Source: a virus. From it: a DNA stretch of 55,276 bases. Where the stretch lies: the IMG/VR virus record IMGVR_UViG_3300044628_001308, positions 1-55,276 of that record, one strand, 5' to 3'. The stretch's first letter is position 1, and each line of letters begins with the position of its first letter. Both the position numbers and the translations under genes were made by a program. This document shows positions 1-14,158 of the stretch, piece by piece. Under the pieces are notes generated by a model. It was not told the origin of the DNA, made no database searches, and saw nothing but the letters and a program-made list of their open reading frames with translations.

Positions 1-39
1 TGCCTCTATTAAATTTTTTATTTCATCGTGTCTATTCAT
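1..39 (-). CDS. 5' end of an unidentified gene, cut by the window
   Basis: An ATG at 39-37 on the minus strand opens a frame that stays open to the window edge. The visible peptide is MNRHDEIKNLIEA, 13 residues and hydrophilic. The start overlaps the stop of the upstream amidase gene by a few bases, as at many other junctions here. Too little is visible to assign a function. Confidence 0.5.
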   Translation of the reverse strand, partial: MNRHDEIKNLIEA

Positions 40-634
40 CTTCTATATTTTTTTTAAAATAATCAAAATCAAATGCCGGACTTAGATCCGTAACATCTGT
101 GGTGTAATTACTTCTGGTAACAATACCATCAAATTGATTCACACCATTTACTTTAGTGTTATGTCCCACACATTTTTTACTAATGTTAAAATCTTCCATT
201 AGTTTTTTACATATTAGTATGGTACTATCAATTTGAACTTCAGTATAAGGTTGCCATAAAAAATAATCTCTCCACTTACGTTCAAAAGCCTTTCCATTAT
301 AAATATTACCAATCCAGTTAATGTATCTATTTTTTAATGGTTCTTTTTCTAACCAACCTAAATTTTCCAAAGAAACCGTTATTGATTTCTTGGATATGTT
401 CTCATCATTTATATATTTGGAGTATTTTTTTGGTTCCAATAGTTCTATTATCTTACCATCACGAGTGATTATATAATTAGGAACTTTATTGTATTTCTTA
501 CCGTACCTATATTTTAACGCATTTATATAATCTGTTGCAACCCTTGAAGTGTGTGATAAAATAATTTGACTTTTATTTTTTTCCTCACCTTCATAATTGA
601 AGTCCCCGAATTTTATAACGTTTTCATCATTCAT
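32..634 (-). CDS. N-acetylmuramoyl-L-alanine amidase (endolysin), Amidase_2 / PGRP-like
   Basis: This 200-residue protein has the layout of phage zinc amidases that cut the bond between MurNAc and L-alanine in peptidoglycan. Likely zinc ligands are H28 in SHTSR, H158 in VGHN, and D183 in the DLSPAFDF motif, which corresponds to the DPGPAFDW motif of Amidase_2. The YIITRDGKI strand fits the region of the catalytic tyrosine. There is no signal peptide, so release would need a holin or another route. The start is ATG, and the downstream membrane-protein gene on the same strand ends 8 bases inside this start, so the two are probably co-transcribed. A lytic role is inferred from the family; a virion-associated lysin cannot be excluded. 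Confidence 0.8.
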   Translation of the reverse strand: MNDENVIKFGDFNYEGEEKNKSQIILSHTSRVATDYINALKYRYGKKYNKVPNYIITRDGKIIELLEPKKYSKYINDENISKKSITVSLENLGWLEKEPLKNRYINWIGNIYNGKAFERKWRDYFLWQPYTEVQIDSTILICKKLMEDFNISKKCVGHNTKVNGVNQFDGIVTRSNYTTDVTDLSPAFDFDYFKKNIEDE

Positions 635-1826
635 CGTTCTTTTTATAAACTAATCTTTTAATACCATCATCAGTTGTTGTGGTAGTTGTTGACTCACCAC
701 CCGTTCCATTACTAATCATATCATATTCAGTTTCCTCAGACATATTATCAGCAAATGTTGGTTCCCAAGTATTTACCTCAATAATATTTAATGGATCTCT
801 ATGTACTATTACAGGTACTTCAACAATTTTTTCTACTTCCTTAATAACCTCAACAATCTTCTCTACTTCCTTAATAACCTCAACAATTTTTTCAACCACA
901 ATTGGTTCAACTTGGGGGGTGACTTGGGGGGTGACTTGGGGGGTATAATTATGAAAGTAACTTTCAGGAACTTCAACCTCATCATGTATGGTATCATGTA
1001 TGGTATCATGTATGGTACTACTTTCTTTTTTATTTTTTTTAAATGCTTGGTTAGTCGCAATAACTAATGTAATTGCTAATGGATCAAATACAAAAATTAA
1101 AAGTAAAATGAAAAGGTTCGCAACTTGTTTAATATCCCAACCTGAAATCTCACTAATGTATTTAATAGATCCTAACTCACTACCTTCCAACTCAGCAGAT
1201 TCCATATTAAGTATTTCAATATCTAATTTAGTTATACTATCATTCATACCATCAATACGAGTGGATACCTTATCTCTATTTTCTGTGGTAAGTTTTAATT
1301 GATCCTCAAATGATTTACGGTTAGCATTATTTGCCTTTGTAATAAGTTGACCTGTTTTTCTATCTACAGATTGTGTTGTGGTATTGGTAGATAATCCATC
1401 TCTTAACTTTGAAATGTCCTTATCTAATACATCTTTCTCTTTCTGTTGTTCGTTTTTTATTTCAATAAATCTTGTTTTCTTTACTTCAACATTTGCAATC
1501 TTTTTTTGATTAATCTCAAGTTTTGCAATATTCCCCTGAAACCCAGTACTTAATAAACCATAGATACCAAGTGAAGTAATCAAAGATAATGTCACAAGAG
1601 CGATTGTAAGGTATATCTTTAAGACTCCGTATGTTTCTTTCCACTTGTCGTGTAAGTATGTGGCAATTGCAATCTTAGATACCTCAAGAAAAGATCCCAT
1701 AATGATTACAGGTAACGCAACCCCAACAAACACCACCGATAATCCTACCACACTATAATAAGCGGCAGTTCCTGATAGACCAAGAGCACAAAATAATAAA
1801 AACCAGGGTAAAAATTTTTCTTTCAT
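627..1826 (-). CDS. Membrane protein with coiled coil and repetitive C-terminal tail
   Basis: A 399-residue protein of unknown function. Three hydrophobic segments lie near residues 8-28, 30-52 and 68-92. A long charged coiled-coil region follows (about 100-215), then a fourth membrane segment (about 233-258). The C-terminal tail holds three in-frame short repeats: TIHD three times, TPQV three times, and a ten-residue VEKIVEVIKE unit two to three times. The tail repeat resembles one in the coiled-coil protein at 8885-9667, so the two may be functionally linked. The gene precedes the amidase and overlaps it by 8 bases, so a role in lysis or in altering the host envelope is possible but unproven. 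The start is ATG at 1826. Confidence 0.7.
   Translation of the reverse strand: MKEKFLPWFLLFCALGLSGTAAYYSVVGLSVVFVGVALPVIIMGSFLEVSKIAIATYLHDKWKETYGVLKIYLTIALVTLSLITSLGIYGLLSTGFQGNIAKLEINQKKIANVEVKKTRFIEIKNEQQKEKDVLDKDISKLRDGLSTNTTTQSVDRKTGQLITKANNANRKSFEDQLKLTTENRDKVSTRIDGMNDSITKLDIEILNMESAELEGSELGSIKYISEISGWDIKQVANLFILLLIFVFDPLAITLVIATNQAFKKNKKESSTIHDTIHDTIHDEVEVPESYFHNYTPQVTPQVTPQVEPIVVEKIVEVIKEVEKIVEVIKEVEKIVEVPVIVHRDPLNIIEVNTWEPTFADNMSEETEYDMISNGTGGESTTTTTTDDGIKRLVYKKNDE
821..893. repeat. 30-bp tandem repeat, about 2.4 copies
   Basis: Units begin at 821, 851 and 881 and differ by only a couple of bases. The unit is a multiple of three and encodes a ten-residue Glu/Val/Ile-rich repeat in the membrane protein on the minus strand, so copy-number changes would keep the frame. 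Confidence 0.8.
911..946. repeat. 12-bp tandem repeat, three copies (TPQV-coding)
   Basis: Three near-identical 12-bp units with six-G runs encode TPQV three times on the minus strand. Length changes by slippage would remain in frame, although the G runs themselves are frameshift-prone. Confidence 0.8.
983..1018. repeat. 12-bp tandem repeat, three copies (TIHD-coding)
   Basis: The unit CATGTATGGTAT occurs three times with one change in the last base. On the minus strand it encodes TIHD repeats in the membrane protein. Confidence 0.8.
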
Positions 1827-1875
1827 AATAATTGTAATGTATTTATAAATATCAATATAAGGTATTTATATAATT

Positions 1876-2295
1876 ATGTCATTACTTAGAGAATCAATAC
1901 GTAAAGTTTTAATCTTAGAAAAGAAGATTGCACAGATAGTTAGTACTATTGAAGTTACATTTAATTTAGAAGTGGATCGTATACCTCACACCTATGATAG
2001 ATCTACACGACCTGAATTAGAAAATATTGGATACAATCAAAGACCTATAGAAAGTAGGGAGATCAGAGAGATTGTAATGATGGCTAAAACTGAAATAGCC
2101 GAAAAAATAATTAACCGTGAAATAAAGGAAGGTGAACGTTTTGTGATAAAGTCAGAAAAATGGGAATTAGCCATTCCTTTAGAACCCATCCATGTTTCAG
2201 GTACAAATTGGATCTTACAAGTGTTCACCGTATTTAGAGAATCAAGAGAAAATCCATTTAGAGTTGGTAAGAACCAAATTGTAATTTGGGTATAA
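1876..2295 (+). CDS. Hypothetical protein, lone plus-strand gene
   Basis: A 139-residue protein I do not recognise. It is one of only three plausible plus-strand genes in the window. It starts with an amphipathic helix (LLRESIRKVLILEKK) and is mixed alpha/beta with no cysteines, membrane segments or signal peptide. The upstream 49 bases are very A/T-rich and shared with the divergent membrane-protein gene at 627-1826. A hairpin begins nine bases after the stop; its T-run lies on the minus-strand side, so it may serve mainly the RNA gene coming from the other direction. A complete frame with a suitable start region and no competing minus-strand gene supports coding. Confidence 0.6.
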   Translation: MSLLRESIRKVLILEKKIAQIVSTIEVTFNLEVDRIPHTYDRSTRPELENIGYNQRPIESREIREIVMMAKTEIAEKIINREIKEGERFVIKSEKWELAIPLEPIHVSGTNWILQVFTVFRESRENPFRVGKNQIVIWV

Positions 2296-2325
2296 AAATA
2301 AAACCCCCACTGGTACCAATGGGGG
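2296..2325 (-). terminator. Intrinsic terminator of the small RNA locus
   Basis: Stem CCCCCA/TGGGGG at 2304-2309 and 2320-2325, with an inner TGG/CCA stem, is followed on the minus strand by TTTTATTTT (2303-2296). It also lies just after the stop of the plus-strand gene ending at 2295, but that side has no T-run. Confidence 0.85.
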
Positions 2326-2437
2326 AGTGTAGTTTCATCTTGTCGCCAGGACAAGATTGAGGAGTTTCACCCAGAGAACATCGTGTCTCATTCCGCCGAG
2401 TTGTAAGGGTAATCTCGGTTCAACCCTTTTCGTTTGT
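2304..2437 (-). ncRNA. Candidate structured small RNA, about 135 nt, class unknown
   Basis: No protein gene lies here. On the minus strand the order is Bacteroidota-like promoter, about 135 nt of structured sequence, then intrinsic terminator. Near the 5' end an H-type pseudoknot is possible: AAGGGT/ACCCTT pairs (2423-2428 with 2405-2410) interleave with CCGAG/CTCGG pairs (2414-2418 with 2396-2400). A perfect 8-bp hairpin with a 5-nt loop follows (2337-2357), flanked by two copies of TGAAACT, and then the terminator stem. It does not fold as a tRNA. A small regulatory RNA or a structured 3' end of the upstream transcript are both possible; the dedicated promoter favours the former. The exact start is inferred. 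Confidence 0.6.
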
Positions 2438-2441
2438 CTTA

Positions 2442-2473
2442 CAAATATAAGTCTTTTATTTCAATCTACCAAA
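2442..2473 (-). promoter_or_regulatory. Bacteroidota-type promoter of the small RNA
   Basis: On the minus strand TTTG (2473-2470), a 20-bp spacer and TATATTTG (2449-2442) match the Bacteroidota primary-sigma consensus TTTG-N19..21-TAnnTTTG. It sits just after the stop of the gene at 2480-2932. Transcription would begin near 2437. Confidence 0.6.
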
Positions 2474-2479
2474 CATTAT

Positions 2480-2932
2480 TTAAATAATATTATCTTCTTG
2501 TGTAAATCCAGCTGAATCAACCTCAGGTCCATTATCAATTAACATTTCAACTTTTATTTCTCCATCAACAAATCTTGACACAGAACAGAATTCAATTTCA
2601 ACATCCTCATTAAGATTCAATTTAAACTCGTTATACTGTTCCTCAGTTTCAAATGACCCAACTTGAGTTGCCGGTGACTGATAAACTTTTAAACGATACG
2701 ATCCAAATGGATTTTTAAGTTCCGAAACTTCCATGATAAGATTATCAAAGTTATAATTATCAGTACCATCTTCGGTTACAAATTTTCCATCCTCATCTCT
2801 TTTTAATGTTTGAGCATAATGGTACCCACAATTACTACAATTTATATAATCTTCACCTGTTTTGTAATAGAAGTCACTAAACGCTTCTTGTTTACAATTT
2901 GGGCATTCAATATAATCAATTACACTTCCCAT
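2480..2932 (-). CDS. Zinc-ribbon protein of unknown function
   Basis: A 150-residue protein whose N-terminus carries two CxxC knuckles, CPNC (about residues 10-13) and CSNC (about 32-35), forming a probable zinc ribbon. The rest is acidic with beta-strand character and no recognised domain. It follows the sigma-factor gene by 12 bases on the same strand and is probably translated from the same mRNA. A zinc ribbon next to a sigma factor could suggest a transcription-related role, but this is only context. The small RNA promoter starts directly after its stop codon. Confidence 0.65.
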   Translation of the reverse strand: MGSVIDYIECPNCKQEAFSDFYYKTGEDYINCSNCGYHYAQTLKRDEDGKFVTEDGTDNYNFDNLIMEVSELKNPFGSYRLKVYQSPATQVGSFETEEQYNEFKLNLNEDVEIEFCSVSRFVDGEIKVEMLIDNGPEVDSAGFTQEDNII

Positions 2933-2944
2933 GTTTTTTATTTT

Positions 2945-3745
2945 TTATAAGTAATCAAATAATTCTGAACTTTCATTTCTTAACCTTCTAAGGGCTCTTT
3001 CCTTAATCTGTCTAACTCGTTCTTTAGTTAAACCAAAGTCCCCACCAATATCTTCAAGTGTTCTTGGTGTCCCACTTAATCCAAAGTAATCCTCAATGAT
3101 CACTTTCTCTCTGTCATCCAACACATTCAATAAAGATATTAATTTGTTCTTTAACATATCTTTAGTGTTGAAACCTGCATCAGGAGCAAGTGCGTCAGGA
3201 TTAGCAATTAAATCAACCAATGTGTCACCTTCGTCATTGATTGTCATATCCAAATCAATCATAGATGGTAATGACGTAAACTTTGTCTCCAATTCTTTAC
3301 CTGTAATAGCAATTTCTTTCTTCGCTTTGTGTAGATCCTGAACAACATTAACTGGGAGTCTGATCGTTCTCGCATTGTCATTCAACGATTGGATAATAGA
3401 TTGTTTAACCCACCAAACCGCATATGATATAAAACGTAGATCTTTATGCCAATCAAAGTTTTTAATAGCTTTCATCAAACCTAAATTACCTTCAGCGATA
3501 AGATCGGATAGATCCAAACCTTGATTTTGGTATTGTTTAGCCACCGTAATTACAAAACGTAAATTACCAACTAATAACTCGGATTCAATTTTTTCCCTTT
3601 CACGTTTAGGAGTATCATCAGCCTTCATCTTAACCGCCAGTTCTTTTTCTCTGTCAGGTGTCATTACTTTAATTCTACGAATATCTTTTAGATAATGTTG
3701 AATCTCTTCTTGGTTAATCGGAATCCCTAAATTTTTGTCTTTCAT
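2945..3745 (-). CDS. RpoD-like sigma-70 family RNA polymerase sigma factor
   Basis: A 266-residue protein with the main parts of a primary-type sigma factor. Region 1.2 (IPINQEEIQHYLKDIRRIKV) lies near residues 8-30. Region 2, including LRFVITVAKQYQNQG, DLIAEGNLGLMKAI and FISYAVWWVKQSI, spans about 62-120 and covers core binding and -10 recognition. A shortened region 3 follows, and region 4 has a helix-turn-helix around TLEDIGGDFGLTKERVRQIK (about 229-248). The sequence looks like Bacteroidota RpoD rather than T4 gp55, which lacks a comparable region 4. It should direct host RNA polymerase to phage or host-type promoters, and the TTTG/TATATTTG promoters nearby are consistent with that. Spacing to both neighbours is only 4-12 bases. 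Confidence 0.92.
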   Translation of the reverse strand: MKDKNLGIPINQEEIQHYLKDIRRIKVMTPDREKELAVKMKADDTPKREREKIESELLVGNLRFVITVAKQYQNQGLDLSDLIAEGNLGLMKAIKNFDWHKDLRFISYAVWWVKQSIIQSLNDNARTIRLPVNVVQDLHKAKKEIAITGKELETKFTSLPSMIDLDMTINDEGDTLVDLIANPDALAPDAGFNTKDMLKNKLISLLNVLDDREKVIIEDYFGLSGTPRTLEDIGGDFGLTKERVRQIKERALRRLRNESSELFDYL

Positions 3746-3749
3746 ATGT

Positions 3750-4277
3750 TTAATTAATTGTTTTTGAATATTCGTCTAATTTGTTTTTTTCTTCTTCAGT
3801 CAATGAATTGATCCCCTGATCGTTTATCTTATCTAAAAGTTCGTCAATTGTTAATGTACATACTTTTTTAGGTGCAAAACCCATAATGGTTTCTGACATA
3901 CGAGCAAACTCCTCATTACTACCAAAATCCATTTTAAATTCAAAACTTTTAGGTGGAGTTTGTTTTTTCTTATTGGTATTTCTTAACGTAAGTAAATGTA
4001 ATAAGTTGTCTTCATCAAAGTTAGATGCTACATTTTTAGTCTTTTGTGTTAGAAAATAATTAAAGTTTTCAAATTCTACAGACACTAAACATAAGAAGTC
4101 ATCAATCTCATCAACGGAGAAATCACTTGCAAAGTGGAAAATTGAATGTTTATCACCAAACATAAACTTAACTTGGTTTGATGACATAATCTTTGATAAC
4201 TCAGCCCCAATGTTTGCAGTTGTTTCATCAGGGTTTTCCATATCTTCATTGTGGTATACAAAAAGTAAGTAATTCAT
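3750..4277 (-). CDS. Hypothetical protein
   Basis: A 175-residue acidic protein with no motif I recognise. It has no signal peptide, membrane segment or cysteine cluster. The C-terminal part (LTIDELLDKINDQGINSLTEEEKNKLDEYS) looks like a small helical module common at the ends of phage proteins. The gene is four bases upstream of the sigma-factor gene and is probably translated with it. A TATATTTG element at 4307-4300 could drive it. Confidence 0.6.
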   Translation of the reverse strand: MNYLLFVYHNEDMENPDETTANIGAELSKIMSSNQVKFMFGDKHSIFHFASDFSVDEIDDFLCLVSVEFENFNYFLTQKTKNVASNFDEDNLLHLLTLRNTNKKKQTPPKSFEFKMDFGSNEEFARMSETIMGFAPKKVCTLTIDELLDKINDQGINSLTEEEKNKLDEYSKTIN

Positions 4278-4299
4278 ATGTGTGTTTTAAATTGTTTTA

Positions 4300-4307
4300 C
4301 AAATATA
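4300..4307 (-). promoter_or_regulatory. Possible -7 promoter element (TATATTTG)
   Basis: The minus strand carries TATATTTG in the 44-bp gap between the methyltransferase stop and the start at 4277. The same octamer occurs in the small RNA promoter. No good TTTG lies 19-21 bp upstream, so this call is weak. Confidence 0.25.
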
Positions 4308-4321
4308 CGAATAAAATCCAA

Positions 4322-5152
4322 TTAAACATCATAATTAGTGATAATTAAATGATTAACATTTATTTCATTACCTATTCGTCCACTATGAATTTTAAAAGAA
4401 TATTTTTTTGGGTATTCAAACTTAATATAGTCCGAATAAAGATTTCTAATAAATTCAGACCCACCCACAATCATTAAACATTTACTTTTTGTTGATATAA
4501 ATTTTTGAAACAACTCTAATTGATTATCTCTGCTAAAATTGTCCCCACCATAGTCATTAAATACAGAATCATATGGTTGGTCAATAAAAAAGAAATTTTC
4601 TTCCCCATTATATTTATCAAAAACGGATTTATAATCCCCTTCCATAACTTCCGTTCTTTTAAAAAGATTGGTATAATCCTTATTCAAAAGATCTTCAAAA
4701 TTCAAAGTTTTATATCTACCCCAAGGAACATTAAACTTACCATTTTGGTTATACCTTAACATACCTCTAAAACAAGTTTTTCTAAGATAAATAAATCTTG
4801 CCGCCTCATCAATTTTATTTTTTGGGATGAAAATTTTTTTATCTTCACTAAGTTTTTTTCCTCCACCACGAACAATATAATAATCTTCTTCTGTATTCCC
4901 AAAAGATTTTAATACATTATATATTTTTGTTGCATTCCCCAATTTTATTTGACGATAAAAATTAATTAATTCTGGATGTATGTCATTTATAACATTTTCC
5001 CCATGAAAATTTATATCAAAAAAAACTGCAGCACCTCCAGCAAAAGGTTCAATAAATCTTTTAAACTCTTTGGGGTAAAAATTAGAGAATGTTTTTATTT
5101 CATCTCTTTTACCTCCTGACCATTTACATAATGGTTTTAATTTTTTCTTCAT
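4322..5152 (-). CDS. dam: D12-class DNA adenine-N6 methyltransferase (Dam-like)
   Basis: A 276-residue protein, the usual length for Dam/D12 enzymes, which transfer a methyl group from S-adenosylmethionine to N6 of adenine. KWSGGKR (residues 10-16) and FIEPFAGGAA (33-42) are the N-terminal and SAM-binding motifs. The catalytic motif is DQPY at 191-194, where the family normally has DPPY; the flanking aromatic and hydrophobic residues are kept. The recognition site cannot be read from sequence; GATC is only the commonest for the family. The adjacent upstream gene encodes a PD-(D/E)XK-like protein, which suggests a restriction-modification pair, although a lone protective methyltransferase is also common in phages. 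Activity with the altered motif is unproven. Confidence 0.87.
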   Translation of the reverse strand: MKKKLKPLCKWSGGKRDEIKTFSNFYPKEFKRFIEPFAGGAAVFFDINFHGENVINDIHPELINFYRQIKLGNATKIYNVLKSFGNTEEDYYIVRGGGKKLSEDKKIFIPKNKIDEAARFIYLRKTCFRGMLRYNQNGKFNVPWGRYKTLNFEDLLNKDYTNLFKRTEVMEGDYKSVFDKYNGEENFFFIDQPYDSVFNDYGGDNFSRDNQLELFQKFISTKSKCLMIVGGSEFIRNLYSDYIKFEYPKKYSFKIHSGRIGNEINVNHLIITNYDV

Positions 5153-5173
5153 ATGTAATATATATTTATTTTT

Positions 5174-5785
5174 TTATAAAAGTGAACGTATTCCATTGGA
5201 CATAAGTATTTTTTTGTTTTCATTAAGTATTGTTGATACATCTACTGTTTCTTTTCTAAATTCAGAAAGAAAATCGTCAGTTATGTACAATTCTATACCA
5301 TATGGAAGATACTGTGTTTTTAATCTATTAAAATTGGATTGATTAACATCTTTTGGTTTAAGTAAAATAAATTTTACTACTTTATTTGGGTTACTTTTTT
5401 GAACTTGTTCTTTTGCCATGGTCCATTTTTTTACTTCGTCCGAAATAGGAGTGTTATTATTATGTTCAGCACCTTTAGGGTCTATAAGTAATATTTCATT
5501 TTTGGTTTCTACATAAATATCAACAGTATATCCTGACGATTGGGAATAGTTTTCAGGTAAATTAACATCAGTATATGGGATAAATACTTCCAATTCATTT
5601 TTTATGACACTTTTATTCTTAGAAATTTCTTCTGAAACTATTTTTGGTTGTCCATGCCCTTTTTTTATTGCTGCGGAGTGCAATACAGATCTAACTTCAT
5701 CCATTAGGTCAAATGAAGCATTTGCAATTACTTTTAAGGCCTCAATTTCTTCGTGTGTTTTTATCGATTTTAGTTTTTTCTTCAT
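5174..5785 (-). CDS. PD-(D/E)XK-like protein, possible restriction endonuclease
   Basis: A protein of about 203 residues from the ATG at 5785; an in-frame TTG at 5812 is less likely. The core reads YTVDIYVETKNEILLIDPKG: an Asp on one strand, then a DPK (D-x-K) on the next. This is the shape of a PD-(D/E)XK nuclease active site and is preceded by a helix containing conserved-looking Glu residues. The C-terminal LPYGIELYITDDFLSEF resembles the ends of some type II restriction enzymes, but I cannot name a family. The adenine methyltransferase gene begins 21 bases downstream, so a two-gene restriction-modification system is the simplest reading. A nuclease against host DNA, or an unrelated function, remains possible. 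Confidence 0.55.
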   Translation of the reverse strand: MKKKLKSIKTHEEIEALKVIANASFDLMDEVRSVLHSAAIKKGHGQPKIVSEEISKNKSVIKNELEVFIPYTDVNLPENYSQSSGYTVDIYVETKNEILLIDPKGAEHNNNTPISDEVKKWTMAKEQVQKSNPNKVVKFILLKPKDVNQSNFNRLKTQYLPYGIELYITDDFLSEFRKETVDVSTILNENKKILMSNGIRSLL

Positions 5786-5789
5786 AACA

Positions 5790-5823
5790 CAAATATACGG
5801 ATAATATCTCAATTAGTTACAAA
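5790..5823 (-). promoter_or_regulatory. Possible promoter of the nuclease-methyltransferase pair
   Basis: On the minus strand TTTG (5823-5820) at the very end of gp46, then 22 bp and TATATTTG (5797-5790). The spacer is 1-3 bp longer than usual, and the predicted start of RNA would fall at or near the ATG at 5785, implying an almost leaderless message. Treat as tentative. Confidence 0.3.
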
Positions 5824-8189
5824 ACTTTTGATATATTATTTTCTTTTTTGATTTTAACGATAGTATCCGACCATTGACTAATCATTGGGTTATGACTAAT
5901 AAGGAACACTTTATCAAAATATTCTTTAATTTTTTGGAAGAACTCAGATACCATTTCTAGGTTATCATTACTGATTTTTCCAAATACCTCATCAAAAACT
6001 ACAATATTTGGTTTTGGCAAAGTACATACCTTACTAAGTACCGATCGTAATGCTAATGATGCGATTGTTCTTTCATATCCTGATCCTGAAACCATTAATT
6101 TTTCAATACCAGTACTATTATCAATCATTAAGAATTCAACATCATTTTTGTCATTTATATTAATTAATAATTTAAAGTAACAACTATCTTCCATCAATCT
6201 TTGTAACTCAGAGTTAATCAAAGGCATCATTGTTTTCATAATGATTTTTGATAATCCATTCTTACCAAAGGCTTCCATATAGATTTTGTATATTCTTTCC
6301 TTCGCCTCTTCCTCTTTGATCTTAACAATTAACTTTTCATTGTTTTCAATCTTTTCATTACAAGTTTTGATTTGGTATTCATTGTTTGTAATGTTTGTGT
6401 TTTTTTGTCGTTTAAGATGATCAAGTTCATCCAACCTTAAGTCAGCCTTAATCAACATTGAATCAATCTGTGTGTTCTCTTTAATCTTATCCTGAACATC
6501 ACCCCAACGATCCAACTTACCTTTTAAAACTCCAATCTTTAAATCACAACTTTCAATACTCAATTCGTATTTTTCCTTAATAAGTTTGTTTTTCTCATAC
6601 TCATCAAAGTCTTTCTTTAACTGAACGAAAGCTTGTTCTTTGCCTGTTAAAACCTGCATTAACCCAACTTTTTGGTCTTTATGCATGATATAACCATCAA
6701 GTTCTCCAATCTTTTGTTGGGTTATTGATGCGTTCATTAACTCAATTCCACAATGTTCACATTTAATACCATCACTCACAGAACTCTTCAATTTCTCAAT
6801 TTCTCTGATCTGTGTTTCAAGTTCAATTTTAGATTTGAACACGTCATTGTATTCCTCTTTAATTTTATCGTGATCATCCTCATGATAAAATTCCTTTGGT
6901 TCAACAACATTAAGTTCATCTAACTTTTGTTTGAACGTTGTTTTCTCTCTATCAAAACCATCAATTTCTTCTTGAGTCTTAACCGGGTTCATCAAACTGA
7001 TTTCCTTATCAATGTCTCCGTGTTTCTTCTTCAACATATCATCACGATACTCTTTTCCCTTAACGATTTTATCATCAATATCTTTAAGTTCCAATTTAAT
7101 CAAATCAATTTGATCATTTAATTCACCGATTTTTGTTGTTAAAGATTCGTTATCACCTTTTAATTCTTCCGAATTATAAATGTTAGACATCTTTGATTTA
7201 TTAAATTCAGAATAAATCTCTTTACCAACTTCCTCTTTCCGTTTTAAAAACTCAAGTCCCATAAATCTTGACAACACCTGTCCTCTTGCGGTTGGTTTTG
7301 ACTCCAATAACTCCTCAAGATTCGTTGCAGTTGTAAGTATGGTCATTAAGAAATCTTCCTTGGTCCCAATGGAATTTTTAATGAACGCTTCAGTTTCCCT
7401 TCTTTGTTCCCCCGTGAAATTCAGTAAACTACCATCGGCCATTTTTTTAAAGAAGTCCAATTCTGTTTTCACATTCCATTCTCCTTTTTTAGAAAGTTTT
7501 CTTTCAATCTTTCTAAGGATAATATAATCTTCACCATCAATTGTTACCTCACCTTTAACAACTACCGAGTCTTTATCGGTAAATCGGTTAAAGATTTCTT
7601 CAGCCTTTGTAGTCTTTGTTGTCTCATTAAAGAATAAGAACAACAACAAATCAACAGAAAGAACGGTCTTCCCACCAAAGTTAGGTGGATCTGATTCAAC
7701 AACGACAACCCCGTTGCATTTATCAAAATCCATTCTTTGATTCTCACCATATGATAAGAAGTTTGAAAACTCAATGTTTCTGATATACCACTTTTTGAAT
7801 TGTGTTGTTTCAGTTTCATCCTCTTTCATTCGGTTCTCAACCATTCTGTTAATACCTAAGATATCTTCAGTATAGTTAGTATACCCTTTAGACTCTAAAA
7901 ATTTCTTTAATAGATCAAGTTGATAATTAACATCAGTTACATTAACAGACACATCAATACTTTGCATTGTGTCTGACTCAACGTTCTTAGCCTTTGTTAA
8001 CACATTCACATTGGTAGTGTTATACTTCTTTTGGAAATAATGTTTAACACTCTTAATCTTATCTTGTGTGAAATTTTCTTGTAGGTCTTCCCATACAACT
8101 TGTATTGTAGGATTTTCGTACTTTGAAAAGTCTAAATCTTTTATCATTATATTGTAATTAAATAATCTTGGTGGGTTGAACAAGTCCAT
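5817..8189 (-). CDS. 46: gp46-like recombination endonuclease subunit (Rad50/SbcC ATPase)
   Basis: A 790-residue SMC-like ATPase. After about 125 N-terminal residues comes the ABC head with IEFSNFLSYGENQRMDF and a Walker A variant around NFGGKTVLS (about residue 171). Long coiled coils flank a zinc hook, KCEHCG near residue 477. The ABC signature VSGSGYERTIASLALR lies near 700, and Walker B NIVVFDEVFGK near 733, followed by the LISHNPMIS switch. With gp47 it should process DNA double-strand ends for recombination-dependent replication and host DNA breakdown. The N-terminal extension ahead of the head is longer than in T4 gp46, and a second ATG at 8147 (MIKDLDF) is a possible alternative start. 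The upstream small gene ends 4 bases before it. Confidence 0.92.
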   Translation of the reverse strand: MDLFNPPRLFNYNIMIKDLDFSKYENPTIQVVWEDLQENFTQDKIKSVKHYFQKKYNTTNVNVLTKAKNVESDTMQSIDVSVNVTDVNYQLDLLKKFLESKGYTNYTEDILGINRMVENRMKEDETETTQFKKWYIRNIEFSNFLSYGENQRMDFDKCNGVVVVESDPPNFGGKTVLSVDLLLFLFFNETTKTTKAEEIFNRFTDKDSVVVKGEVTIDGEDYIILRKIERKLSKKGEWNVKTELDFFKKMADGSLLNFTGEQRRETEAFIKNSIGTKEDFLMTILTTATNLEELLESKPTARGQVLSRFMGLEFLKRKEEVGKEIYSEFNKSKMSNIYNSEELKGDNESLTTKIGELNDQIDLIKLELKDIDDKIVKGKEYRDDMLKKKHGDIDKEISLMNPVKTQEEIDGFDREKTTFKQKLDELNVVEPKEFYHEDDHDKIKEEYNDVFKSKIELETQIREIEKLKSSVSDGIKCEHCGIELMNASITQQKIGELDGYIMHKDQKVGLMQVLTGKEQAFVQLKKDFDEYEKNKLIKEKYELSIESCDLKIGVLKGKLDRWGDVQDKIKENTQIDSMLIKADLRLDELDHLKRQKNTNITNNEYQIKTCNEKIENNEKLIVKIKEEEAKERIYKIYMEAFGKNGLSKIIMKTMMPLINSELQRLMEDSCYFKLLININDKNDVEFLMIDNSTGIEKLMVSGSGYERTIASLALRSVLSKVCTLPKPNIVVFDEVFGKISNDNLEMVSEFFQKIKEYFDKVFLISHNPMISQWSDTIVKIKKENNISKVL

Positions 8190-8192
8190 TCA

Positions 8193-8519
8193 TTATTTTT
8201 GTTCTTCTTCTGTTGTGTCAACATCTAAAGGTACATCTATCTCTTCAATGTTAAATGGTAATTCTTCTTCATTACCCATAATTAATTCAGGGTGTTTTCC
8301 TTTAAAATCAACAATTGAATCTAAATGATCTTTATCAAAAACTTCAAATGGTACTGTACTACCAGATAAATCCACATTTAAACCTTCATTGTTTTTTAAT
8401 TTTTGAATTTGTTCTTCCATTAATTTATCAAACGCTTTTTGCATTCCTGATTTTTCTTGGTTTATACGTTTGTTTCTTTTTGCGACTTTGGCTCTGTGTT
8501 CTTTGTCTTTTTTTCCCAT
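8193..8519 (-). CDS. Hypothetical charged protein
   Basis: A 108-residue protein with a strongly basic N-terminus (KKDKEHRAKVAKRNKRINQEK) and an acidic C-terminus ending in DTTEEEQK. No domain is recognised. The composition suggests a flexible nucleic-acid- or protein-binding adaptor. It lies between the membrane-protein gene and gp46, four bases ahead of gp46, so the two are probably expressed together. Confidence 0.6.
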   Translation of the reverse strand: MGKKDKEHRAKVAKRNKRINQEKSGMQKAFDKLMEEQIQKLKNNEGLNVDLSGSTVPFEVFDKDHLDSIVDFKGKHPELIMGNEEELPFNIEEIDVPLDVDTTEEEQK

Positions 8520-8534
8520 TTTATATATTTGTTT

Positions 8535-8888
8535 TTATTTATTACTTGGTCTATTTTCTTCAAACCATTCAATTATACTATTGATTGCCCATACCGATCC
8601 TGCGGACAACATTCCATCAAAAAATACGGATAAAAACTTATTAAGTCCAATAAATTCATGAGCCGGTGAAAAATAAAATAATGATAAGACAAATCCAACC
8701 CAAGTACCTGTACATAAAATACAAGATATCAAATCTGATATGAATTTAAATGTAGGTCTAGTTAAAAAATAACCTTTATCTCCACCTGCAATTTTAATTT
8801 TATCTCTTAATCCATTGAAAATGGATCCATACACTAAGATCGTCGTCATTCCATATGCCGCGATCATAAACATTACTAATTGTATCAT
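8535..8888 (-). CDS. Small membrane protein, DUF1360-like
   Basis: A 117-residue protein with three hydrophobic segments (about residues 1-27, 45-68 and 78-100). The motif ISCILCTGTWVGFVLS in the second segment resembles the CxxCxxxWVG signature I associate with DUF1360 phage/bacterial membrane proteins, but this is from memory. Its start overlaps the stop of the coiled-coil gene by ATGA, indicating translational coupling. Function is unknown; it is too polytopic for a classical spanin, and a holin-like role is possible but not supported by position. Confidence 0.65.
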   Translation of the reverse strand: MIQLVMFMIAAYGMTTILVYGSIFNGLRDKIKIAGGDKGYFLTRPTFKFISDLISCILCTGTWVGFVLSLFYFSPAHEFIGLNKFLSVFFDGMLSAGSVWAINSIIEWFEENRPSNK

Positions 8889-9667
8889 ATTCTACTATTT
8901 AAATTGGAACCTTTCATATAAATGGCGTTTTGTAAATTTGCCGTTTTTTGTAGTTCCTGGTTTATTTTTTCTAATTCATTTATTTTATCGTTCTTCAATG
9001 ATAAGTCATTTCTTAAATTCTGTAAAGTATCTTGTAACATATTTAACTTATTATTTGTTACAGGAATGTCTAAATTACGTCTAAGTTCGTCTAATTCTTC
9101 ATCCTTCTTAGACATTTTATTTTGGAAAATATTTTCCATTTCTGTCGTTTTAGTGGAAAATTCTTCTCTAATTCTACCGATTTCGGTAGTTTTAGTGGAA
9201 ATTTCTTGTTCCAACTCGGCAATTTTTCCGCCAAGTTCGTTTATTTGAATATCATTAGTGGTATAAATTATTTTCTCAACCACCCTATCTACAGGAACCT
9301 CTTTAACCACTTCAACAATTTCAAGTGGTCTATTCTCCAACTGTTGTATTTTTAACAACAGTTCATTTATTTTAGTATCATCAGTTACATTAACAATTCG
9401 TTCAACTATCTTCTCAACTGGTACTTCCACCCGTATTTCTCGGATTACCTCAATTTCCACCCGTTTTTCTCCAATCCCACCCGTTTTTAAGTGTTTTTCA
9501 CCTTCATTAAGTGTTTCTCCCAAAAGACCAAACTTCTTAATGTCAAAACCTTGTTTGAAACAAAGGTAGATGAAATCTTCCTTATCCTCAATATTATTGA
9601 GTTCACAAAAACTCTCAACGCTGCTGAGAGTTTCTTTATTAAATATTTTGGAGTCTTTCTGTTCCAT
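8885..9667 (-). CDS. Long coiled-coil protein with Glu/Val repeat
   Basis: About 260 residues from the ATG at 9667; an upstream in-frame TTG at 9682 is less likely. The first 60 residues look globular. The rest is almost wholly coiled coil, with two copies of a block built as E-V-KEVPV-(D/E)-(K/R)-(I/V)VE-K-I followed by TDD/TND-I-INEL. The block resembles the tail repeat of the membrane protein at 627-1826. No catalytic motif is visible. It overlaps the end of gp47 by 29 bases and the start of the membrane-protein gene by 4, so the three form a translation-coupled group. A scaffold or tether role is a guess. Confidence 0.65.
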   Translation of the reverse strand: MEQKDSKIFNKETLSSVESFCELNNIEDKEDFIYLCFKQGFDIKKFGLLGETLNEGEKHLKTGGIGEKRVEIEVIREIRVEVPVEKIVERIVNVTDDTKINELLLKIQQLENRPLEIVEVVKEVPVDRVVEKIIYTTNDIQINELGGKIAELEQEISTKTTEIGRIREEFSTKTTEMENIFQNKMSKKDEELDELRRNLDIPVTNNKLNMLQDTLQNLRNDLSLKNDKINELEKINQELQKTANLQNAIYMKGSNLNSRI

Positions 9668-10418
9668 TCTCAATATCTTCAAATGATTTAATGGAGAACT
9701 TCAAAAATGGTTTTGGATTAGGTAAATCAGTATAATTATACTCCTTTGTCTCAACATCATATATACCATATCCGTGTCTACCTATACTTTCACCAATGTT
9801 ATTTTGAATGGTTGATCCAATCATATAACCTTTACCTCCTTTAATTTGGAACTCAGCTCGTTTATGAATGTCACCACATAAAACGGTTTCCAACCCATCA
9901 AACTTTTCAATATCATACGCCTCTTCACCAAACTCAAATCCAAGATCTGTTTTTAAACCTGAAATAGGTCCGTGAAATAACCCAATTTTTTTTCCATTAC
10001 CTTCAATAATGTCAGGGGGAATATTTCCTTGATATTGTGAATACACGCACCAACTAATGTTCTCATCCTCATACACACCTCTATCTCTGTAGTATACAAT
10101 ATTATGATTATTTAAAGAGTTAATGATAGGTGTAAGTGCGTCCAATCTTTCGGTATTATTTACCAAAAAGTCGTGGTTACCTGGTATAATAATTGTTTTA
10201 GCAATTGATGAACATTCAGTTAAAATCCAAGCAACAAATTCAATAAGTTCAGGTGTCATTTGGTTTTTAGAATGAACTAAATCACCCGTAAATATAATAC
10301 GGTCAGGAGACAATTCTTTCCATTGTTCAATTGCCGTTTCCAATATTGATCGGTATAAGTCGTGATCTTTATATAATCTGATATGTAAATCAGAAAAGTG
10401 TACTAAAGTTTTAATCAT
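9639..10418 (-). CDS. 47: gp47-like recombination endonuclease subunit (Mre11/SbcD phosphoesterase)
   Basis: A 259-residue calcineurin-like metallophosphoesterase. Metal-binding motifs appear in order: SDLH (D10, H12), TGDLVHSKNQ (D46), PGNHD (N81, H82, D83), then LFHGP and CGDIHKRAEF near residues 181-190. The last motif has GDIH where the family normally has GHxH; T4-type gp47 proteins tolerate this. It is the nuclease partner of gp46, here separated from it by three small genes, whereas in T4 the two are closer. It overlaps the 71-residue gene upstream by 8 bases. Confidence 0.9.
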   Translation of the reverse strand: MIKTLVHFSDLHIRLYKDHDLYRSILETAIEQWKELSPDRIIFTGDLVHSKNQMTPELIEFVAWILTECSSIAKTIIIPGNHDFLVNNTERLDALTPIINSLNNHNIVYYRDRGVYEDENISWCVYSQYQGNIPPDIIEGNGKKIGLFHGPISGLKTDLGFEFGEEAYDIEKFDGLETVLCGDIHKRAEFQIKGGKGYMIGSTIQNNIGESIGRHGYGIYDVETKEYNYTDLPNPKPFLKFSIKSFEDIENGTERLQNI

Positions 10419-10626
10419 TTTTACTTCTATTAAATGGTTCTTTTTTAAAGAGGTATCCTGAGATATCCAAATATCTCAATATCTCTAAATCACCCTCAAT
10501 TATTGTGTGAGGTATGAAAGATTTTCCTCTATTATTTTTCCTATTACCATCAATTTTAATCATTCCTATTTTGTATCCAAAACGGTTAGCTAACCATTTA
10601 ATGAATAATGCGGGGTATCTTTTCAT
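10411..10626 (-). CDS. Hypothetical small basic protein
   Basis: A 71-residue basic protein rich in Arg, Lys and aromatic residues (FIKWLANRFGYKIGMIKIDGNRKNNRGK). No known domain is recognised and there is no signal peptide. It overlaps gp47 by 8 bases. Its size and charge suggest a nucleic-acid-binding accessory protein, but that is not shown. Confidence 0.55.
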   Translation of the reverse strand: MKRYPALFIKWLANRFGYKIGMIKIDGNRKNNRGKSFIPHTIIEGDLEILRYLDISGYLFKKEPFNRSKND

Positions 10627-10633
10627 ATTTTAA

Positions 10634-11008
10634 TTATTTTATTGTTTTAACTGCTCTAGCATTAATATGTCCTTCTTTTAATGTTATCGCAATAGACCTG
10701 TGTGTAAACACCTCCATCCAAACATAATTAGAATTATACTCTGTAGAACTCCAATAATTAGTGTTAACAAAATTACCTATAAGATCCTTATTGTTATACA
10801 TTTCGTCTAATTCCTCTTTAGTTGGTAATCTCCAATCTTTACCCAATTCGTTACACTCTCTTTTAGCATTATACCATGTTACCTCTGTGGGTAAATCAAA
10901 TTGTGCAATTTCTATATTATTAAGTTTATATGTTGTTCCTATTATCTGAGATACAGATGTGAATGTAATAAAAAACAGAAGGATGGCTAATATTATACTT
11001 GATTTCAT
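10634..11008 (-). CDS. Secreted DUF1566 / Lcl-domain-like protein
   Basis: A 124-residue protein with a clear signal peptide (about residues 1-21, ending near TSVS). The mature part follows the DUF1566/Lcl C-terminal pattern: TWYNAKRECNELGKDWRLPT, then EELDEMY, YWSSTEY, and a terminal INARAVK. That domain is common in exported Bacteroidota proteins, which suggests acquisition from a host. A phage protein sent to the periplasm or cell surface during infection could alter the envelope or exclude other phages. It sits in a run of small accessory genes with ordinary spacing. Confidence 0.75.
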   Translation of the reverse strand: MKSSIILAILLFFITFTSVSQIIGTTYKLNNIEIAQFDLPTEVTWYNAKRECNELGKDWRLPTKEELDEMYNNKDLIGNFVNTNYWSSTEYNSNYVWMEVFTHRSIAITLKEGHINARAVKTIK

Positions 11009-11035
11009 AGGTTTTAATTTTTAATACTTTATTTG

Positions 11036-11371
11036 TTATTCAATACCGTCTTCTAACTCTTTCTCTGCAAGAACACTACCTAAAAATTGGTTTTCATTTT
11101 CTAAGAAAATTATATATTCTTTCAACGCTTTATTTTTATCCCTTTGGGATTGTATTTTTTTTAATTGTTTTCCTATTTCAACCTTGATGGAATCTTCAGG
11201 TAATGATAACCATAGAGTATCTACATGAGGATTTTTTTTAAGACTGTCAATTATTTTTTCTTTATCTTTTATTACTCCACTGAATTTGGTATTCGCTCTA
11301 TTATTAATAATGGGCGCAAATATACCAATAAGAATTGATGTACTAACAATGATGGTTAATAAGTTTTTCAT
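11036..11371 (-). CDS. Membrane-anchored coiled-coil protein, spanin-like in layout
   Basis: A 111-residue protein with an N-terminal hydrophobic segment (about residues 4-22, no obvious cleavage site) followed by a charged, largely helical periplasmic part (KQLKKIQSQRDKNKALKEYI). This topology is that of an inner-membrane spanin (Rz), but no overlapping lipoprotein partner is visible and the gene is far from the amidase. The neighbouring secreted DUF1566 protein lies 27 bases downstream. Function remains open. Confidence 0.55.
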   Translation of the reverse strand: MKNLLTIIVSTSILIGIFAPIINNRANTKFSGVIKDKEKIIDSLKKNPHVDTLWLSLPEDSIKVEIGKQLKKIQSQRDKNKALKEYIIFLENENQFLGSVLAEKELEDGIE

Positions 11372-11384
11372 AGTTTTAATTTAT

Positions 11385-11717
11385 TTATGTTATTGTTTTT
11401 TCAACATAAGTTGATGTCTCACCTTCAGTGAATCCTTTTTCAATTAATAATGGTAATGAACCTGGTTTACACCAAGCATATACAGTAAATCCACTATAAC
11501 GGGTTTTAACATATTCCCATCTAGTATCCCACAACATTCTAAAAACACCTTTTAGTCTATGTTCTTCGTGCACCCAAGCATCTAAAAATTTTATTTTATT
11601 ACTTTCTTCTCGTTCCATATATATGTGACCTATAATTTCACCATTTAACATGGCAATCCATGTTTCAAGTTGTTGTGCGTTACTCTTAAGGTGTATAACT
11701 TTAATATCTTCAATCAT
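11385..11717 (-). CDS. GNAT-family N-acetyltransferase
   Basis: A compact 110-residue protein with GNAT topology: a strand MLNGEIIGHIYM, a central strand FLDAWVHEEHRLKGVFRML leading into the acetyl-CoA-binding helix, then TVYAWCKPGSLPLLIEKGF, the typical C-terminal strand and helix of the family. The pyrophosphate loop normally Q/RxxGxG/A is shortened to EEHRLKGVF. The substrate is unknown. It is three bases from the 71-residue gene upstream, in a row of small accessory genes. Confidence 0.7.
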   Translation of the reverse strand: MIEDIKVIHLKSNAQQLETWIAMLNGEIIGHIYMEREESNKIKFLDAWVHEEHRLKGVFRMLWDTRWEYVKTRYSGFTVYAWCKPGSLPLLIEKGFTEGETSTYVEKTIT

Positions 11718-11719
11718 AA

Positions 11720-11935
11720 TTACATTACTATTTTTGGTGGATATCCCAAATCATCTTCTGATTTAAATGGATTTACTGGAATAGGTATATTTTGAAAAGG
11801 TAACATATTACTTTTAAATTCATTATCTTTTACTTGACCCATTTTTTCTACAATAGGAGTAATTTCTATGTGTTTATTTTCAAGTTTACCATACAAGTAA
11901 CCTTCTAACCAAATGTAAAATTCTTTATGTGTCAT
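11720..11935 (-). CDS. Hypothetical small protein (EFYxWLEGYL motif)
   Basis: A 71-residue protein opening with HKEFYIWLEGYLYGKLENK, a motif I associate with small conserved proteins in many phages, without a known function. The start overlaps the stop of the 43-residue gene upstream as ATGA. The rest is low in secondary structure. Confidence 0.6.
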   Translation of the reverse strand: MTHKEFYIWLEGYLYGKLENKHIEITPIVEKMGQVKDNEFKSNMLPFQNIPIPVNPFKSEDDLGYPPKIVM

Positions 11936-12063
11936 GCTAATTCTCTATTATAAAGGTTTACTAAAATAATTCTTGCAAACCTAAATTCTTTAACTCTATT
12001 TAAGTTTAGACCATACGCCAATGCCACACTTTTAAGGTGCGGATAAGCTTCATTTAATGTCAT
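11932..12063 (-). CDS. Small hypothetical protein, 43 residues
   Basis: The minus-strand frame from ATG at 12063 to TGA at 11934-11932 encodes MTLNEAYPHLKSVALAYGLN and a further 23 residues. It fills an otherwise empty 142-bp gap and its stop overlaps the next start as ATGA, the junction type seen elsewhere in this operon. Codon use is like its neighbours. It looks like a short helical protein; function is unknown. Confidence 0.6.
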   Translation of the reverse strand: MTLNEAYPHLKSVALAYGLNLNRVKEFRFARIILVNLYNRELA

Positions 12064-12077
12064 TTTACCGATTTCCA

Positions 12078-12296
12078 CTATTCAAAAATTAAGAATTCTT
12101 CATTTACGAATCCACAACTATTACACATATAAGTTGGAAAAGGTACGATTGTATCTTCCGGACTTCCTGTTAACAATTTAGGCACTTTCTTCAACATAGT
12201 TACTTCTTTGAAGAATCTTGAACCACACTCCTCGCAAACGATAGTTGGTTGTTCTCTAAGATTAATCTTAGGTCTTATGATGTTATCATCACTCAT
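12078..12296 (-). CDS. Small zinc-ribbon protein
   Basis: A 72-residue protein with two CxxC pairs, CEEC (about residues 19-22) and CNSC (about 59-62), which should bind one zinc ion in a ribbon fold. It resembles small zinc-ribbon proteins found in many phages, but no function is known. It follows a possible promoter and leader at 12293-12417. Confidence 0.65.
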   Translation of the reverse strand: MSDDNIIRPKINLREQPTIVCEECGSRFFKEVTMLKKVPKLLTGSPEDTIVPFPTYMCNSCGFVNEEFLIFE

Positions 12297-12382
12297 TTTA
12301 TTATATATTTAACGTTTATTTTAATTTTTTCAGTGTCCCAACTAGTGTTGGTGTACCAAATTGGTGTAATTGTCATTTCCAT
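12293..12382 (-). CDS. Possible 29-residue leader peptide
   Basis: A minus-strand frame starts at ATG 12382 (MEMTITPIWYTNTSWDTEKI and nine more residues) and its TGA overlaps the start of the zinc-ribbon gene as ATGA. Against it, the promoter at 12386-12417 would start RNA at or just past this ATG; the second ATG at 12376 could still serve. It may be a leader peptide or merely untranslated leader. Confidence 0.3.
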   Translation of the reverse strand: MEMTITPIWYTNTSWDTEKIKINVKYIIK

Positions 12383-12385
12383 ACT

Positions 12386-12417
12386 ATAATATAGTTTAAT
12401 TTATTTATTTTGTCAAA
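12386..12417 (-). promoter_or_regulatory. Candidate promoter for the small-gene operon
   Basis: On the minus strand TTTG (12417-12414), 20 bp, TATATTAT (12393-12386) fits the Bacteroidota pattern with two changes. The same stretch also reads TTGACA-N17-TATATT, the generic sigma-70 pattern. It overlaps the 3' end of the nuclease gene. Confidence 0.4.
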
Positions 12418-13259
12418 TACTTTTTCATATCCATTTCAAGAATTGTCTTAATAGTTTTTTTTGCAACTCTATGTTCAACAAATTCTCTTTCTTCCGTTAA
12501 TAACACAACAATACAACCCATCAGTTTGATATTCGCATATTTAGTACCTTCCAACATCTTTAATAATAACTTACCATAAAAAGGTAATTGTGTGTTGTAG
12601 TGACCAAGAGCATTATCAGGTAAATCTTCAAATGGTTTCTTCATTGGTTTTGTAAACTTATTCTTTTCAAAGTTTTTAGGTTTGTTTGTTTTCCAATCCG
12701 TAATCAAAATACCAAGATCACCATTTGTACCAATAATTAACCATACCTTATCGGGTTGTCCTGTATATCCCAATTCAGGGTGACCCAAAACCATCTCCGT
12801 ATCAAGTAAGATACAATTACGTTCTTTAAGTAAATCAATGTATTGTTTACCAGCAACAACCATAGTATCACCTTTTACAATCTGTTCGGCATCACATTCA
12901 TAAATTGGTTGTCTCACTTCTTTACCAATACCAAATTCTTCTAATGTATGTTTCTCTAATAAGAAGTGAACACGAGAACCCATGTTTGTGGAATATATTC
13001 CAGCAGCAGCCCATTCCTCCAACAATCGTTGTTGTTCATAAGGATCACCATTCGCCTTTCTAAATGAAATTCCTTCAGAATCAAATTCAGTATAGAAATA
13101 TTTCATCAATTTAGAAACAGAAGGAAAATCATCTCTTAATTTACCAGTTATATCTAACATAGTATATTTATGAGCGTCCTCCTCAAATGTTAATTGAAAC
13201 TCTTTTTGTTTTTCTGATATGATTTCTCTGATCTCTTCAGATATTTTTTTTAAATCCAT
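12405..13259 (-). CDS. RecB-like PD-(D/E)XK nuclease
   Basis: A 284-residue protein with a RecB-family nuclease core. GSRVHFLLEKHTLEEF gives the N-terminal helix with a conserved His and Glu. GQPDKVWLI (Asp near residue 170) and ILITDWKTNK (DWK near 187) form the metal-binding D...DxK site. C-terminal strands follow, including QLPFYGKLLL, the QxxxY helix of the family. Such nucleases act on DNA ends in recombination or on Okazaki intermediates. The gene lies directly after primase (1-base TAATG overlap), so a replication or repair role is likely. Confidence 0.8.
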   Translation of the reverse strand: MDLKKISEEIREIISEKQKEFQLTFEEDAHKYTMLDITGKLRDDFPSVSKLMKYFYTEFDSEGISFRKANGDPYEQQRLLEEWAAAGIYSTNMGSRVHFLLEKHTLEEFGIGKEVRQPIYECDAEQIVKGDTMVVAGKQYIDLLKERNCILLDTEMVLGHPELGYTGQPDKVWLIIGTNGDLGILITDWKTNKPKNFEKNKFTKPMKKPFEDLPDNALGHYNTQLPFYGKLLLKMLEGTKYANIKLMGCIVVLLTEEREFVEHRVAKKTIKTILEMDMKKYLTK

Positions 13260-14158
13260 TAATCTTTTAATTTTACGAAGTATTCGTTTATATTTCCTCT
13301 TAAATCACATACATCTTGGTCCATAGGTAAATGAACAATCTTAATTCGTTCATATAATTCACCCCCATTAAGTTCACGATATAATTTAATTGCGTTATCC
13401 CAAGCATCACCGTCAAGAGCAATAATAATGTCTCCCTTAGATTTCATATATATTTTTTCAAATAGAATTTCCGACATATGTTTACCTAACATTGGAATTG
13501 AATTATCCAAGAAGAATCCGTCAAATACACCTTCAACCAAATAGATGTCTTTATCCCAATCAATCAATCTTTCATTGAAGATTATTATATCTTTCTCTGC
13601 CTCAGGGTTTTTATATTTAAATTTACTTTTTGTGTCCCAACTACGAGCAACATAATAATTTAACTCTCCGTTACCATCGTATGATGGGACGATAATGCGA
13701 CCTGTATGACTACCACGATCACAAAAGCCAATATTATATTTCTTAATGATTTCATCTGTTATTCCCCTACTTTTTAAATAATTATATGCTTGTCTTCTTA
13801 CTGGGTATACCGGACTTGACTCCGTAAATAACGTGAACCCTTCAGGAAGTGTTAATTTTTTTGTTCGTTTTTGTCTTGGTTGTACCGTCTCAGGTTTTAA
13901 GACATTATATAGTTTCTTTAATTTCTTGTTTCCGTACTTATCAAAAAGTTTTCCCAAAGATCCGTGAGTACCATCCACATCACCACAAGACCAACATTTA
14001 TAAACATTGTTTACGTAATTTATTTCTAAATTATGTTTATTTCTATCATCATCACAGACAGGGCAATTGAAAGATATCTGACCCTTATTGGGGTAGTGCA
14101 GTCCGTGGTCACCCAAAAGGTCCTCCAATAATTCAACAATCGCATCATTTTCTTCCAT
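13259..14158 (-). CDS. DNA primase (zinc-finger plus Toprim)
   Basis: A 299-residue DnaG-type primase. The N-terminal zinc finger is built from CPVC (about residues 31-34) and CWSC (about 55-58). A linker and the catalytic core follow with YYVARSWD. The Toprim domain has DIYLVEGVFDGFFL (catalytic Glu) and IIALDGDAWDNA (DxD). It ends soon after Toprim, as expected for a separate primase working with the helicase encoded at 44001-45389. It corresponds to T4 gp61 in role. A divergent plus-strand gene begins 86 bases upstream. Confidence 0.88.
   Translation of the reverse strand: MEENDAIVELLEDLLGDHGLHYPNKGQISFNCPVCDDDRNKHNLEINYVNNVYKCWSCGDVDGTHGSLGKLFDKYGNKKLKKLYNVLKPETVQPRQKRTKKLTLPEGFTLFTESSPVYPVRRQAYNYLKSRGITDEIIKKYNIGFCDRGSHTGRIIVPSYDGNGELNYYVARSWDTKSKFKYKNPEAEKDIIIFNERLIDWDKDIYLVEGVFDGFFLDNSIPMLGKHMSEILFEKIYMKSKGDIIIALDGDAWDNAIKLYRELNGGELYERIKIVHLPMDQDVCDLRGNINEYFVKLKD

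Follow-up and report, generated by a model that had tools for sequence, protein, structure and literature searches.

A pseudoknotted small RNA family of uncultured phages, absent from Rfam, and the protein gene that recurs beside it

What is made from a 184-bp gap without genes in a phage genome, when all the RNA elements that it holds lie on one strand? The gap occupies positions 2296-2479 of the window, by which we mean the whole stretch of DNA analysed (55,276 nucleotides, IMG/VR record IMGVR_UViG_3300044628_001308), and its elements all lie on the minus strand (Table 1). A first-pass annotation had proposed that a structured RNA of roughly 135 nt is produced there independently of the flanking protein genes. 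Our analysis indicates that the locus is, almost beyond doubt, a real gene for a new family of structured phage non-coding RNAs, absent from Rfam and here called R1. The promoter match, H-type pseudoknot, 8-bp hairpin, TGAAACT pair and terminator of the annotation all lie where it had placed them, and the comparison adds two conserved hairpins that it did not contain, the P3-stem and P4. Both TGAAACT copies are present, but what is conserved among homologues is only UGAAA, once in the P4 loop and once in the strand just after P5.

Table 1. Positions of the genes, predicted RNA elements and transcription signals at the R1 locus in the window
Feature	Position	Strand	Remarks
P3 gene, 139 aa	1876-2295	plus	convergent neighbour; candidate protein partner of the RNA
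Intrinsic terminator	stem 2325-2304, T-rich tail to 2296	minus	
Predicted RNA 3' end	at terminator 2325-2296	minus	
P5, perfect 8-bp hairpin	2337-2357	minus	conserved UGAAA directly after, 2336-2332
TGAAACT copies	2369-2363 and 2337-2331	minus	
P4 hairpin, RGG-UGAAANN-CCY	2360-2372	minus	loop fits T-loop
P3-stem hairpin, GAGA..UCUC	2373-2390	minus	covariation
Pseudoknot second stem	CCGAG 2418-2414 with CUCGG 2400-2396	minus	
P1, pseudoknot first stem	2427-2423 with 2410-2406	minus	AGGGU/ACCCU
Predicted RNA 5' end	near 2437	minus	
Promoter match, TTTG-N20-TATATTTG	2442-2473	minus	presumed Bacteroidota primary-sigma form
Zinc-ribbon-like gene	2480-2932	minus	borders gap; sits behind sigma gene
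Sigma-70-type gene	2945-3745	minus	

The annotation had recognised no known RNA class, and this is borne out by the Rfam scan. Rfam 15 gave no match at the gathering score in the window or the R1 homologues, its best sub-threshold matches at E up to 10 were implausible, and neither ARAGORN nor Rfam found a tRNA or tmRNA at the R1 locus. We take the GGTGAAAnTCC of R1 to resemble the cobalamin-riboswitch box, a likeness to which Rfam gives no support. A protein-coding reading of the locus was rejected because the classes differ in length by 1-nt indels.

Folding the single sequence gives only a modest gain over its shuffles (z −2.0) and is no proof of a pseudoknot, so homologues had to be compared. 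Across 48 distinct cores the R1 fold consists of P1 and the pseudoknot stem followed by the P3-stem, P4 and P5 hairpins. Among 52 homologues 96.1% of cells are paired, against at most 51% when the structure is slid along the same set, and both sides have changed in 15 pairs (144 cells) compared with 7.1 pairs (44.1 cells) in shuffles; the structure-fitted alignment A4 favours its own structure, and the MAFFT alignments A1 and A7, made without the structure, agree. Compensatory changes in both pseudoknot stems, the check that the annotation had named, are found in these homologues and in a subfamily, R1b. The outer P1 pair alternates between AU and UA, with both-side change in 17 sequences. The second pseudoknot stem is paired in 100% of cells in the 52-homologue set; L225 carries CUGAG/CUCAG for CCGAG/CUCGG, an independent compensatory pair, and R1b replaces the whole stem by UUGGUUA/UAACCGA or a variant, a stem that pairs in all members and shows compensatory variation of its own. 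Among the hairpins, the P3-stem becomes GGUG..CACC in other lineages, with both-side changes at four pairs; P4 is 99.3% paired, its outer pair exchanging AU, GC and GU and taking all four Watson-Crick types in R1b, with a GGAA loop in L136/L142 and a longer stem in L150 as exceptions to its loop; and P5 has both-side changes in seven of its eight pairs. The predicted pseudoknot is strongly supported by this comparative evidence, not by single-sequence folding.

Loci retrieved through the zinc-ribbon and sigma proteins yielded 33 distinct R1 homologues, and two added pattern scans extended the family to about 90 IMG/VR contigs, all of them from uncultured metagenomic phages. R1b (L257, L351, L352, L382 and L384) was found by a pattern on the 3' half of the RNA. 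Pattern scans of GTDB genomes gave no R1 with the first pattern and six matches, judged to be chance, with a looser one; DNA similarity searches of the named-phage and plasmid collections returned no R1 homologue. Two DNA matches, H1 and H2, were rejected as homologues, covering only the promoter stretch or sequence beside it, and sub-threshold model matches in L093, L333 and window 48327-48428 were put down to chance. Of the 20 large contigs in this group, 11 carry R1, each a single time, and it was not found in the others, which reach 304 kb; among related phages its distribution is patchy and it can be dispensed with. Where it is kept, it changes slowly. In relatives with 78-82% identity of their sigma proteins, agreement is 41% at fourfold-degenerate sigma sites, 80% in the RNA and about 95% in the first 38 columns of the RNA alignment, the pseudoknot half, a contrast that places that half under strong purifying selection.

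The form TTTG-N20-TATATTTG, which we take to be that of Bacteroidota primary-sigma promoters, matches the whole window 15 times against 4.4 expected in such AT-rich DNA, so that a match to it is, by itself, unspecific. Within 1-16000 no other site looks as strongly terminator-like as the one at the end of R1, which nearly all R1 homologues keep. The centre of this terminator (window 2304-2325 and homologues) is palindromic and covarying, GGTACC in 35 and GGCGCC in 6 distinct copies, as for a putative two-way terminator or dimer contact. How the family as a whole may be transcribed depends on where a copy stands. Of 53 classified copies, 32 have a stop codon no more than 25 nt from their start (that of the sigma gene in 22, c12 in 8 and the zinc-ribbon gene in 2), and none of these has a TANNTTTG (−7) box within 40 nt upstream; the box lies 19-31 nt upstream of 15 of the 21 intergenic copies, compared with 3% of random windows, and also stands upstream of R1b copies. 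In L136/L142 both neighbours of R1 are on the opposite strand. The structure is the same in the abutting and the intergenic copies. R1 is a unit kept in different transcription settings, and neither constant independence nor an existence only as a 3' UTR fits the family. The independence from the flanking genes claimed by the annotation is matched here by a promoter match and a terminator of the locus's own and cannot be generalised, 32 of 53 relatives abutting a stop codon; conservation only as the 3'-UTR tail of the neighbouring gene, which would have spoken against that claim, is contradicted by the 15 intergenic copies with a promoter box. In this phage R1 very probably forms its own transcription unit.

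Which gene accompanies R1 also depends on the setting. A P3-family gene stands tail to tail with R1 in 17 of the 21 intergenic copies as against 4 of the 32 abutting ones, and it is convergent with R1b in all five cases; the loci of four of these were retrieved by RNA pattern alone. No sigma gene was seen in the examined DNA of those four; the fifth, L257, has both sigma and P3. Nor is R1 adjacent to a sigma gene in the L136/L142 lineage. The link with transcription control that the annotation had thought conceivable is weak in view of these loci, and the tie to sigma seems to be one of position. What recurs beside the stand-alone copies, in a stronger association than that of sigma, is the P3-family gene, convergent with them. 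A small RNA faces 38 of 41 distinct P3 genes (R1 25, alt1 6, s1 5, s2 2; none for three), a count biased because part of the P3 loci were retrieved through the RNA. Mapped on the P3 tree, RNA class changes 8 times, against 15.3 when shuffled and a possible minimum of 4: it is clustered, not fixed. Of 12 R1-bearing records 8 lack P3, and all four P3-bearing large records searched have R1; opposite the P3 homologue of LR745206.1 stands a protein gene and no RNA. As a separate observation, the linker after the pseudoknot (window 2394-2391) reads GGAA in most R1 copies and AGAA in some, and the AGAA copies occur, in the contexts listed, only where P3 is absent, which may reflect shared ancestry.

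The other RNAs seen alongside deserve a description of their own. The second structured family, alt1, is about 130 nt long, has the same promoter form as R1 and is often convergent with P3 (L099:3842-3976, L100:3842-3976, L063:5519-5657, L297, L325, L327); its single-sequence z is −3.2 and it has no Rfam match. Short RNAs of the s1 class contain two hairpins: GTTCTT..AAGAAC, whose loop TGTCAGAATACATT is conserved, and that of the terminator, in whose loop GTCAGAA is repeated (L319:3780-3884, L303:4215-4321, L299:3780-3886, L265:3815-3922, L324:3780-3886, L110:3800-3870), and the R1b terminators share the GTCAGAATAC loop with s1. A further short promoter-driven class, s2, has GACCTATTTGTC.. and a terminator and is convergent with P3 (L093:5530-5632; L296 before 3883). 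Finally, L100:4010-4190 and the DNA upstream of R1 in L189 and L194 contain a promoter match, then an RNA-like stretch in which a T-arm-like GGGTTTAAATTCC occurs, and last a terminator, in tandem with alt1 and with R1.

The P3 protein was modelled with moderate confidence (mean pLDDT 81-82). Its sequence contains an H-x3-R motif whose His is invariant and, in a late strand, a Thr that is conserved, and a Foldseek search of BFVD gave a weak match to a RegB-type viral endonuclease model (E 2.5e-4, TM 0.38). One member matches DUF4258 (E 0.0011), which is listed among the BECR-fold families (PMC11980606). Comparison of the P3 profile with that of RegB was negative (probability 1.2%), fold comparison with the PDB gave no significant match, the deeper P3 model included, and no ToxN/AbiQ-type Pfam match was found; the first two of these results speak against P3 as a RegB homologue. 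Since the RegB and PDB comparisons give no support, an RNase activity of P3 is a lead and not a result, and P3 is possibly a small endoribonuclease. P3 of the window and the c12 proteins (L139, L149, L205) also have in common an N-terminal amphipathic stretch of LLRESIRKVLILE type, which we presume to resemble a T4-type capsid-targeting peptide with its LxE cleavage site.

Comparison of the homologues thus shows the predicted fold, the constraint on its pseudoknot, its unity across neighbourhoods and a recurrent gene order. A model based on these data is that R1 is a real non-coding RNA family, has its own transcription unit here and acts in trans; we put the probability of all three together at about 0.6, and action in trans, taken by itself, seems probable. 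The host primary sigma would start a non-coding RNA of about 135 nt at the locus's own promoter, transcription would stop at the terminator, and the RNA would present its nearly invariant pseudoknot to a protein and work as RNA in trans. The likeliest such protein, judged by the recurrent tail-to-tail gene order, would be the product of the convergent P3-family gene, a partnership that we propose tentatively; P3 could be a small endoribonuclease that R1 inhibits, scaffolds or directs. It is a bolder and doubtful step to see in R1 and P3 a new type of two-gene RNA-protein cassette, in which a convergent pseudoknotted RNA controls or equips a phage endoribonuclease and the RNA slot is open to at least four unrelated classes (R1, alt1, s1 and s2). 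Since 32 of the 53 copies abut a coding gene and have no promoter box, action in cis would be possible there.

The tie between R1 and P3 invites another explanation, to which we give even odds: the two may do no more than use one and the same bidirectional terminator in an insertion hot spot, and have no functional connection. At least three other RNA classes occur in the same place, three P3 genes face none, R1 is often found without P3 and RNA class has changed several times on the P3 tree; yet the tie recurs amid quite different other genes (L136/L142, L150/L178 and R1b), and the class labels change less often than in shuffles (8 against 15.3). The abutting copies, 22 of them behind sigma and all lacking the promoter box, suggest instead a cis-acting 3'-UTR element of the sigma operon that protects or processes the mRNA, its promoter gained later in some lineages. 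We consider this unlikely, given the promoter box of most intergenic copies, the L136/L142 copies between opposite-strand genes, the four R1b loci without sigma in their examined DNA and a structure that is the same in both settings. Similarly small is the chance that R1 serves as a decoy for a toxin or for a defence protein of the host, resembling an orphan antitoxin and independent of P3. Its patchy, dispensable distribution would suit such a role, as would the pseudoknot mimicry that phages use against ToxN (PMC5086642), but neither a host target nor a host R1 copy emerged from the pattern scans of GTDB genomes.

The readings that assign R1 to a familiar mode of RNA action fare worse. That it might be a 6S-like regulator of phage or host RNA polymerase or of a sigma factor, in line with the link to transcription control that the annotation suggested, is very unlikely: R1 is usually located behind the sigma gene, but lies away from it at four R1b loci and in L136/L142, and it has neither an Rfam 6S match nor a long open hairpin. 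We attach hardly any weight to a riboswitch or attenuator that would control W627 downstream of the terminator; an aptamer-like fold followed by a terminator and a W627 gene on the same strand after 25 of the 32 abutting copies are what it would predict, but opposite-strand P3 follows 17 of the 21 intergenic copies, no W627 relative was seen at L136, L142, L150 or L178 and Rfam gave no riboswitch match. A self-cleaving ribozyme has next to no chance, since the core, nearly invariant and with conserved unpaired bases as it is, can have a whole stem exchanged, as in R1b, and no Rfam ribozyme matches at E up to 10. The probabilities of these alternatives and that of the RNA family are not mutually exclusive.

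The present work adds a structured phage RNA family that Rfam lacks and whose pseudoknot is backed by covariation. The data further suggest that large uncultured phages have a hot spot for small RNAs, at which one promoter form is common to several RNA classes and one protein family keeps turning up next to them; the RNA-protein hypothesis that follows is concrete and needs only two short genes in a laboratory strain to be put to the test.

Among known phage RNAs, GOLLD and ROOL are non-coding RNAs of unknown function (PMC12286853), and R1 resembles them as a stand-alone structured phage RNA. The promoter form TTTG-N20-TATATTTG also stands before tRNA genes in a stretch of a 634-kb phage that holds a GOLLD RNA (L134; LR745206.1 418537-421587). 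However, R1 has about 135 nt as compared with 400-800, matches neither their sequence or structure nor their Rfam models, and is not beside tRNA genes in the window. From 6S RNA it is set apart by the missing Rfam match and by lacking a long hairpin with a central bubble. The sigma-abutting copies share their 3'-UTR setting with the L17 downstream element, a structured RNA of bacterial 3' UTRs (PMC2864571), but R1 is another RNA, with no Rfam match, and many of its copies are genes in their own right. P3 is a candidate relative of T4 RegB and DUF4258 proteins by its H-x3-R His, late-strand Thr, RegB-type Foldseek match and single DUF4258 match, but the profile comparison with RegB was negative and the PDB gave no significant match. 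The RNAs of type III toxin-antitoxin systems (ToxI, CptI, TenpI) are closer in kind, as H-type pseudoknot RNAs beside a small protein gene, possibly for an RNase, and as RNAs whose classes vary, like those beside P3. Their definition includes tandem short repeats (PMC5086642), which R1 lacks, having one pseudoknot unit per RNA and one R1 per genome; the antitoxin lies upstream in the toxin operon with a terminator between, whereas R1 has its own promoter and a convergent gene; P3 has no similarity to ToxN, and orphan R1 copies are common. As these defining genetic features are lacking, we do not file R1 there. AbiF is a phage-encoded protein that directly binds an adjacent structured RNA, RCd22 (PMC12373285); on the present evidence its protein family and RNA are unrelated to P3 and R1, between which binding is a prediction, but there too a structured non-coding RNA adjoins a phage protein gene. 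The nearest working analogue for R1 would be an RNA that binds its partner protein directly, as type III antitoxins (PMC5086642) and RCd22 with AbiF (PMC12373285) do.
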